The notes under the pieces were generated by a model. The model was given only the letters and a program-made list of their open reading frames with translations. It did no database searches and had not been told where the DNA came from. Source: a virus. Taken from it: a DNA stretch of 34,099 nt. Where the stretch lies: IMG/VR virus record IMGVR_UViG_3300048115_000367, positions 1-34,099 of that record, one strand, 5' to 3'. The translations under genes were made by a program, and so were the position numbers. The number at the start of each line of letters is the position of its first letter. Position 1 is the stretch's first letter. Shown here one piece after another: positions 4,833-5,926 of this stretch.

Positions 4833-5926
4833 TGAGAGTGCTGGATCTATTCAGTGGGATAGGTGGGTTCTCATTAGGGCTGGAGGCTGCCGGTATGGAG
4901 ACCGTAGCGTTCTGTGAGAAGGATTCATTCTGCCGCAAGGTATTACAACAACACTGGCCTGATGTGCCGGTATACGAAGATGTGAGGGCTTTAGATGGAC
5001 GAGCATACCGAGGTTCAGTTGACGTTGTTTGCGGAGGATTCCCGTGCCAACCCTTCTCAGTTGCAGGACTCAAGCAAGGCAAGGCAGATGACCGTCACCT
5101 CTGGCCTGAAATGTTACGAATCATTAGCGAGTGTAGGCCGCGCTGGGTTATTGGAGAAAACGTTTCTGGGTTCATCAACATGGCACTCGACGATGTGTCA
5201 TCTGACTTGGAAAACGAAGGCTACGAAGTCAGGACGTTTGTACTTCCAGCTTGCAGCGTCGATGCGAGACACCGCCGAGATAGAGTCTGGGTTGTGGGCC
5301 ACGCCATCAGCGAGCATGGGTGGAGGGGTTCCGACAGACGCGGAAGCGCGGGGTTGGAAGTGGATGGGGACATACTGGATGAGGCCGGACGGCAGCAAAT
5401 TCCAGACTCAACTGATAGATCAGGCGCGGATGTGGCGAACACCGATGACATCCGACTGGAAAAACATGGACTCAGCAAACCAACTCAGCCTAGCGAAGCA
5501 GGTCAAGGAACCCAAGTTGTGGCCGACACCAACGGTCAGGGGGAACTACAACAGGGCGGGACTGAGCGCGAGGTCAGGGGACGGGCTGGCAACGGCAGTG
5601 AAGAAGGCAACCCTATGGCCCACCCCTACAACCAGGGACTACAAGGGAGGGAGGAAACCCGAAACGCTGAAGGCAAAGGGACGGCTACCGTCGAACAGCC
5701 TACCCGACTCGGTGAACTCAGCGGCGGGGGAGACTGGCCCCCTGAACCCGCCGTTCGTCGAATGGCTCATGGGGTTCCCAACAGGGTGGACAGAATTAAA
5801 GCCTTAGGGAACGCCGTAGTCCCAAGGCTAGTGCAGGTGATAGGTGAATTGGTTGTACAGGTAGACGCTAGTCGTGGTACGCTGTATGCTTCACACAACA
5901 GCGGCAGTAGCCGCGAACCATCCTAG
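4829..5926 (+). CDS. dcm: C5-cytosine-specific DNA methyltransferase
   Basis: This 365-residue enzyme methylates cytosine at C5 in DNA using S-adenosylmethionine. The ATG at 4829 (or 4832) follows GGAGG at 4819-4823; a GTG at 4817 is less likely. Motif I LDLFSGIGGFSLGL is at the N-terminus. The catalytic Pro-Cys-Gln loop is GGFPCQPFS with C73. The ENV motif has E110. The RHRRDRVWVVG motif lies near residues 145-156, and the C-terminal KALGNAVVP motif starts at 324. The target-recognition segment (about 155-300) is polar and low-complexity, with repeated V-x-(D/H/N)-x-N-like units. It contains almost the whole of a second gene in the +1 frame. Target site cannot be read from sequence. Likely role: self-protection from restriction. 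Confidence 0.92.
   Translation: MMRVLDLFSGIGGFSLGLEAAGMETVAFCEKDSFCRKVLQQHWPDVPVYEDVRALDGRAYRGSVDVVCGGFPCQPFSVAGLKQGKADDRHLWPEMLRIISECRPRWVIGENVSGFINMALDDVSSDLENEGYEVRTFVLPACSVDARHRRDRVWVVGHAISEHGWRGSDRRGSAGLEVDGDILDEAGRQQIPDSTDRSGADVANTDDIRLEKHGLSKPTQPSEAGQGTQVVADTNGQGELQQGGTEREVRGRAGNGSEEGNPMAHPYNQGLQGREETRNAEGKGTATVEQPTRLGELSGGGDWPPEPAVRRMAHGVPNRVDRIKALGNAVVPRLVQVIGELVVQVDASRGTLYASHNSGSSREPS
4995..5807 (+). CDS. Overprinted gene inside dcm: WPTPT-repeat protein
   Basis: This 270-residue frame lies wholly within dcm, one base ahead of the dcm frame. It has its own ribosome-binding site (GAGG at 4984-4987, 7 bases before the ATG). It reads as a real protein: GLKCYESLASVGRAGLL, then STWHSTMCHLTWK and SGRLYFQL. 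Four repeats follow, with W101 (WATPS), W147 (WRTPM), W176 (WPTPT) and W208 (WPTPT, then RDYKG). It ends with FVEWLMGFPTGW from residue 254. This set of motifs is familiar from uncharacterised phage proteins encoded next to or overlapping cytosine methyltransferases. Function is unknown; a role linked to methylation or restriction is inferred from the permanent association. Confidence 0.8.
   Translation: MDEHTEVQLTLFAEDSRANPSQLQDSSKARQMTVTSGLKCYESLASVGRAGLLEKTFLGSSTWHSTMCHLTWKTKATKSGRLYFQLAASMRDTAEIESGLWATPSASMGGGVPTDAEARGWKWMGTYWMRPDGSKFQTQLIDQARMWRTPMTSDWKNMDSANQLSLAKQVKEPKLWPTPTVRGNYNRAGLSARSGDGLATAVKKATLWPTPTTRDYKGGRKPETLKAKGRLPSNSLPDSVNSAAGETGPLNPPFVEWLMGFPTGWTELKP
5862..5890 (+). promoter_or_regulatory. 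Putative promoter with shared TCGTGGTACGCT box
   Basis: A -10-like TATGCT at 5885-5890 lies 17 bases after TAGACG at 5862-5867 (four of six matches to the -35 consensus). The spacer contains TCGTGGTACGCT (5872-5883), identical to 75-86. The site is inside the 3' end of dcm and about 170 bases upstream of the gene at 6062, which follows the only non-coding gap in the first operon. It is therefore a candidate separate promoter for 6062-7473. Confidence 0.4.
5901..5914 (+). other. Short perfect hairpin GCGGC-AGTA-GCCGC
   Basis: A five-base stem with a four-base loop starts 11 bases after the putative -10 at 5885-5890 and lies at the 3' end of dcm. It has no following T run, so it is not an intrinsic terminator. 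It could be an operator, an attenuating hairpin or chance. The rest of the gap to 6062 (5927-6061) shows no gene; an AGGAG about 6 bases before 6062 serves the next gene. Confidence 0.3.

Follow-up and report, generated by a model that had tools for sequence, protein, structure and literature searches.

A nested modular protein with motif IX inside a viral C5-cytosine methyltransferase gene, probably half of a two-protein enzyme

The window, a stretch of 34,099 nucleotides (positions 1 to 34,099 of the IMG/VR virus record IMGVR_UViG_3300048115_000367), probably encodes one C5-cytosine DNA methyltransferase as two proteins of the same DNA. The protein of the dcm frame was named alpha, and the protein nested within it, which is modular and bears motif IX, was named beta. 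Judged from their sequences, alpha and beta most likely make up one enzyme. Beta was constrained at the protein level, its counterpart in alpha was unconstrained, the modules were mosaic between genomes, and alpha did not contain motif IX.

In such an enzyme, alpha would give the catalytic and cofactor-binding motifs I–VIII plus X. Beta would initiate at an ATG internal to alpha and contribute motif IX, preceded by a row of ~40-residue modules that open with [W/L]-P-T-P. Beta may dock on alpha, bringing motif IX and the modules to the catalytic domain. The modules might then act as target-recognition units, and the disordered segment of alpha might flexibly tether it to its own motif X.

Two proteins and their motifs

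The dcm ORF was listed at 4817..5926 (+) with a GTG start at 4817. An alternative ATG at 4829/4832 lies 3' of GGAGGG, and this start was chosen for alpha by reading the sequence (Table 1). Alpha matched PF00145 (E 1e-43), over profile positions 2–163 of 324 only, and phrog_363 (E 3.6e-81). The top Foldseek matches of alpha were M.HhaI and M.HaeIII over ~160 columns, and M.HhaI matched the same part of alpha by sequence and by fold. Motifs I–VIII of C5-methyltransferases were present in alpha according to the PF00145 profile and the M.HhaI fold. Motif IX was absent from the alpha chain, and an IX-like LNPPFVEWLMGFP was located in beta. Motif X was found in alpha, with G325 and N326 invariant and L324, A327, V329 and P330 nearly so in an alignment of alpha proteins (A2). 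The order of the motifs along the DNA was VIII (alpha), IX (beta), X (alpha).

AlphaFold modeling with the alpha alignment gave pLDDT values >90 for most of residues 1–160 and for a predicted helix (residues 330–346) that follows motif X. Residues 164–324 had pLDDT values mostly <50 and were without secondary structure. Their hydrophobic fraction was 0.16, compared with 0.35 for the catalytic part of alpha and 0.24 for the module region of beta. Disorder of this segment had been proposed as something a model might reveal, and it is what the model predicted.

Beta matched phrog_1008, annotated as 'DNA methyltransferase', with an E value of 1.3e-34. Its C-terminal LNPxFVEWLMGFPxGWT is motif IX, nearly invariant in 44 betas (alignment A1, partly selected on motif IX itself). 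Pfam and NCBIfam searches against the 44 betas returned no methylase model, with single-member matches at chance level only, and the beta profile had no match among solved structures. When beta was folded alone, the mean pLDDT was 60.6 and the pTM 0.27, too low for a fold search; residues 71–86 were a confident hairpin outside the modules.

Table 1. Features of the alpha–beta locus (window coordinates) and of two related loci (their own coordinates)
Feature	Position	Strand	Remarks
Alpha (dcm frame, C5-cytosine methyltransferase large subunit)	4829..5926	+	Motifs I–VIII and X
Beta (nested small subunit, inner ORF)	4995..5807	+	270 aa, +1 frame of alpha
Likely Shine-Dalgarno of beta (GAGGG)	4984..4988	+
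Alpha motif VIII region (PACSVDARHRRDRV)	5249..5290	+	Invariant A139, H146, R148, R150 in alignment A2
Beta module 1, class D (WATPSAS...QARM)	5295..5432	+	Alpha frame: VGHAISEHG...
Beta module 2, class I (WRTPMTSDWKN...)	5433..5519	+	Alpha frame: VANTDDIRLEKHG
Beta module 3, class B (WPTPTVRGNYNRAGL...SGDGLATAVKK)	5520..5615	+	Alpha frame: VADTNGQG
Beta module 4, class A (WPTPTTRDYKGGRKPETL...)	5616..5741	+	Alpha frame: MAHPYNQGLQG
Alpha residues 164–324, polar passenger segment, predicted disordered	5324..5806	+	pLDDT, hydrophobic fraction
Motif IX in beta (LNPPFVEWLMGFPTGWT)	5742..5792	+	Near-invariant in alignment A1
Motif X in alpha (LGNAVVP)	5804..5824	+	Conserved in alignment A2
Single frame with motifs IX and X, locus L178	3501-3761		AquI-like split within the family
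Single frame with motifs IX and X, locus L241	3648-3917		AquI-like split within the family

A TAG in the beta frame at 4992–4994 lies directly 5' of the beta ATG. The TTAG-ATG arrangement and an AGG ~8 bases upstream were kept in 13/13 close loci of about five lineages. A start directly after an in-frame TAG, with an SD-like AGG, favours independent initiation of beta. The order of the motifs along the DNA could also be explained by programmed frameshifting from alpha to beta (and back), giving a single fused protein instead of two subunits, and in L178, L188, L223 and L241 the frames are shifted naturally. However, beta has a conserved N-terminal part, which a downstream shift would leave unused, and its own ATG after an in-frame stop, with the SD-like AGG, in all 13 close loci also speaks against a fusion. 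We consider frameshifting improbable, and it was set aside as the main explanation because beta has its own start.

Other divisions of the motifs between the two proteins were met among relatives. In L178 and L241, alpha ends just past motif VIII, and the +1 frame holds the modules, motif IX and motif X in one chain. In L188, motifs IX and X are both in the frame of alpha. The IX–X segments of L178, L241 and L188 aligned mutually, and that of L188 matched the DRM C5-methyltransferases 4onj/4onq with an E value of 0.0014 (LEPDEVEMLLGFPKNHT...RTDRYKSLGNS). These variants speak for the assignment of motif IX to beta. Frame displacements in L188 (2498–3994), L223 (2495–3391) and L234 put motif IX, motif X or modules in another frame.

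Beta might instead have a function that has nothing to do with methylation, such as anti-restriction or regulation, and overprint the methylase gene. The 44 betas without a Pfam or NCBIfam methylase model and the anti-restriction family protein nearby (2507–3418) would fit this explanation. Against it, motif IX is missing in alpha and present in beta, some loci read IX and X from a single frame, and the alpha–beta pair is retained across bacteria, making an unrelated beta very improbable.

Elsewhere in the window, the anti-restriction family protein (phrog_7245, E 2.1e-48) is encoded upstream of the methylase, and the region around the methylase may be an anti-restriction block. A 2926-aa ORF occupies 14300–23080 (-). 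Large proteins at 23083–25782 (-), 27921–29852 (-) and 32232–33146 (-) had no PHROG match at E 0.001.

Repeat units and selection in the two frames

The original prediction had described four repeats of the inner frame that fall on four repeats of the dcm frame. The inner units WATPS, WRTPM, WPTPT and WPTPT indeed begin at 5295, 5433, 5520 and 5616, respectively, each with its W codon, and there the dcm frame reads VGHAISEH, VANTDDIR, VADTNGQG and MAHPYNQG, confirming the coincidence. They had been taken for one repeated DNA element, which they are not: only ~11 nt are common to them, and the four units open modules of different classes (D, I, B and A). A search for direct repeats among the four units gave just one 16-nt pair. 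The core TGGSSVACVCC had five matches in the 34-kb window, four of them being these units, against 0.44 expected from shuffles, an expectation that is too favourable and descriptive only because the core was derived from the four units themselves.

The sequence TGG-CCN-ACN-CCN, when shifted one base earlier, necessarily reads [VML]-A-[YHND]-[SPTA]. Inner codons were recoded synonymously for 96 units of 58 non-redundant relatives (beta <85% identical pairwise), and xx[YHND][SPTA] was still read in the dcm frame after 19200/19200 recodings. That the repeats of the two frames coincide is forced by the code and is therefore not independent evidence. The coincidence had been used as an argument that one protein shapes the other; by itself, it says nothing on selection. 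The dcm-frame repeats are a by-product of the inner units. The proline wobble bases at unit position 2 (A6 C18 G35 T11) and position 4 (A27 C11 G51 T7) were much like those elsewhere in beta (A146 C114 G266 T55); by inspection of these counts, selection by alpha on the units left no strong sign.

Codon-position divergence distinguished the two frames. The window was compared with L004, which is 74% identical to it in the N-terminal part of alpha; this pair comes from a tabulation of 12 named pairs, not all possible ones. Before the overlap, alpha had.26/.21/.53 differences per site at codon positions p1/p2/p3, and in the overlapped motif region it had.16/.14/.27. In the repeat region, the values were.49/.12/.13 for alpha, and the p3 of beta was.50; here the wobble of beta changes fast and that of alpha slowly. 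Beyond the end of beta, they were.36/.29/.71, which is normal gene behaviour again. In 13/13 further non-overlapping pairs, a set to which the L004 pair does not belong, p3 of beta was the fastest position in the repeat region. The pooled p1/p2/p3 values for these 13 pairs were.13/.06/.44 for alpha before the overlap,.10/.07/.20 for alpha in the motif part and.18/.16/.38 for beta in the repeat region; the pairs had an identical module string, similar length and 55–93 percent beta identity, and their choice by beta similarity favours beta. Outside the repeat region alpha evolves like a gene; inside it, beta is constrained and alpha is a passenger.

Single modules behaved in the same direction. 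For 1397 module pairs with 50–90% beta identity, the median identity was 0.36 in the alpha frame and 0.73 in beta, and beta identity was higher in 1383 pairs, equal in 5 and lower in 9; these pairs were also picked by beta similarity, a bias towards beta. When alpha of the window was recoded synonymously, beta was open in 0/1000 trials, and the median over 58 loci was 0.005. When beta was recoded, the median chance of an open alpha was 0.024 (58 loci).

An untranslated inner frame, open and repetitive only through the codon bias of the dcm gene, is hardly credible. Shifted frames can stay open through GC-rich codon bias, and the coincidence of the repeats is forced in any case; codon-position divergence, the recoding of alpha and the conservation of beta all contradict it, and deposited phage genomes annotate the nested frame. 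A non-coding inner frame was rejected on the codon-position divergence and the recoding result. These data supported the view that beta, through the overlap, shapes the variable and polar part of the dcm-frame protein. That part of the original prediction stood. The prediction had missed motif IX in beta, by which beta is probably the second subunit of the same enzyme and not an unrelated protein.

The modules of beta

Beta was cut into modules between motifs VIII and IX at [WLFYMV]xT[PA]. This gave 451 modules from 199/239 loci (the others were unparsed), with a median length of 40 aa and quartiles of 33 and 45. They fell into 45 classes with at least 2 members and 97 singletons, and 17/199 parsed loci had no module by the pattern. 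The start consensus of 354 non-redundant modules was W/L, P, T, P, T, A, x, D, where the cutting rule itself dictates the T of position 3.

The same modules were found in distant genomes. Between loci with alpha N-termini <50% identical, 132 module pairs were at least 65% identical (at least 20 aa). For example, a class B pair had 88% module identity with 41% alpha identity, and a class U pair from phage L036 and bacterial L229 had 71% and 38%, respectively. Conversely, module strings differed in 229 locus pairs whose alpha N-termini had 80% identity or more. Both pair counts come from related loci and are not independent. The module string was D-I-B-A in the window, D-A in L084, A alone in L010 and A-B-A in L086. 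The class A module was preceded by class B in the window, by class D in L084 and directly by motif VIII in L010, and was joined at the core. The repeats first noticed are the starts of ~40-residue modules, which distant phages and bacteria also contain, in a different order and number.

All cores share one phase in both frames, so the exchange or deletion of modules at the cores would leave both proteins unbroken. The gain or loss of a module also necessarily changes both proteins together, and joint gain and loss of the repeats, as the overlap requires, was observed across relatives.

The modules may be exchangeable target-recognition units; recognition would then lie in the frame of beta and not in that of alpha, where it had earlier been placed. 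The fuller proposal, that beta is a shuffleable target-recognition array with the TGG-CCN-ACN-CCN cores as its same-phase joints and the variable segment of alpha as only a tether, is tentative, and we would place it a little short of even. A two-subunit enzyme could also use the WPTP modules as linkers or protein-contact units, with recognition residing elsewhere, e.g. in the N-terminal 100 residues of beta or just before motif IX. The modules had no similarity to known target-recognition domains (TRDs) in Pfam or in the comparison of the beta profile with structures, 17/199 loci had no module by the pattern, and the confident hairpin of beta (71–86) lies outside the modules, all of which would agree with linkers. 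We nevertheless regard linkers as less likely, since the modules vary as a mosaic, resemble arrayed phage TRDs in their length (median 40 aa) and in how many stand in tandem, and sit between motifs VIII and IX, which is the place of the TRD in C5 enzymes according to an excerpt of PMC3404938.

Spread of the pair and comparison with known systems

Among 80 viral loci selected by beta, the +1 relation was found in 78/78 with both proteins mapped; in the other two (L054 and L080), the contig lacked alpha. Viral loci were also selected with residues 1–163 of alpha, a query without beta sequence, and beta was open up to the IX-like motif in 75/80, 3 being cut by contig ends and 2 broken. In bacterial genomes selected by alpha (one per species), beta was open to the IX-like motif in 75/80; of the rest, L197 was cut by a contig end, and L188, L199, L223 and L234 were exceptions. 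The IX pattern used in these counts was loose, and reading by eye covered 11 viral and 22 bacterial loci; a stricter pattern had overlooked 11 viral loci whose +1 frame has a variant of the motif, which led to the looser recount. Alignment A2 was too divergent for scanning, and a closer set (A3) was used. The counts are not independent, given the phylogenetic relatedness of the loci and the contigs common to the two viral sets. Methyltransferases with the same repeats and no inner frame, which would have spoken against the original prediction, were not found in these sets; the exceptions were only 2 viral and 4 bacterial loci, and they were frame displacements, plus one unclear locus (L199). 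In L107 and L108, one frame displacement breaks alpha and beta together.

The titles of the bacterial records include Alphaproteobacteria, Bacillota, Bacteroidota, Planctomycetes, Mycobacterium and Thermosynechococcus. The deposited genomes of Paenibacillus phage BN12 and Escherichia phage K1ind3 ('putative Mte8-like protein') annotate nested pairs; an Mte8-like protein is named in an excerpt of PMC5582158. In phage N15 (gene 58), alpha alone is annotated, and within it runs a beta-like open frame with LNPHHSRWLMGLP that has no annotation. In Komagataeibacter phage phiKX2, the frame that ends in motif IX (1112–1720) is annotated as a hypothetical protein, and the overlapping methylase frame has no annotation. 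Locus L053 has an insert between two motif VIII-like copies; the third frame of the insert is HNH endonuclease-like (a label given by eye), and the beta frame is open throughout it.

The nested two-subunit layout is of the M.EcoHK31I kind. The small subunit of M.EcoHK31I is reportedly read from an alternate frame within the gene of the large subunit, and on that account the window resembles it, since the beta gene lies out of frame within the alpha gene. M.EcoHK31I (YGGCCR) is described in an excerpt of PMC3404938 as a two-polypeptide C5 enzyme with motifs I–VIII and X in the large subunit and IX in the small one, and the window, likened to it by this description, has I–VIII and X in alpha and IX in beta. 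M.EcoHK31I has also been put to split use (PMC3439449, in excerpt). Its TRD was predicted in the large subunit (PMC3404938, same excerpt), whereas in the window the constraint in that region is on beta. The modular mosaic beta is a feature of the window family that the excerpted description of M.EcoHK31I does not mention (PMC3404938). In M.AquI (CYCGRG), as in the window, motif IX and the catalytic motifs are divided between two polypeptides; however, its small subunit carries IX and X, whereas X is in alpha here, and its genes are not described as nested in that excerpt (PMC3404938). The M.AquI type, with IX and X on the small subunit, occurs in L178 and L241 and not in the window.

In C5 enzymes, the TRD is placed after motif VIII and before motif IX. 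The multispecific methyltransferases of Bacillus phages are known as single-frame proteins, and their TRDs are similar in size to the modules here. In temperate Bacillus phages, these enzymes have arrayed TRDs on one polypeptide and protect against many restriction systems (PMC12707154, in excerpt). By comparison, the window has tandem ~40-aa modules between VIII and IX in a nested +1 frame, and their role in recognition is putative. The families phrog_1008 (beta) and phrog_363 (alpha) are both labelled DNA methyltransferase, and the labels are silent on nesting, the split of the motifs and the modules. A search that covered open-licence papers in part returned none on a modular nested beta.

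Motif IX on a nested second protein changes from a curiosity of one enzyme to a widespread arrangement of phages and bacteria. In the variable region, beta is identified as the protein with selectable information, and a homology-based assignment of TRDs in such genes goes to the wrong frame if it follows dcm. If beta is a target-recognition array, phages and bacteria would gain, lose and swap specificities while both overlapping proteins stay open, and the enzyme of the window would recognise up to four targets. If the modules recognise targets, this would be an unusual modular exchange within dual-coding DNA, and the anti-restriction specificities of phages might be readable from their module content.
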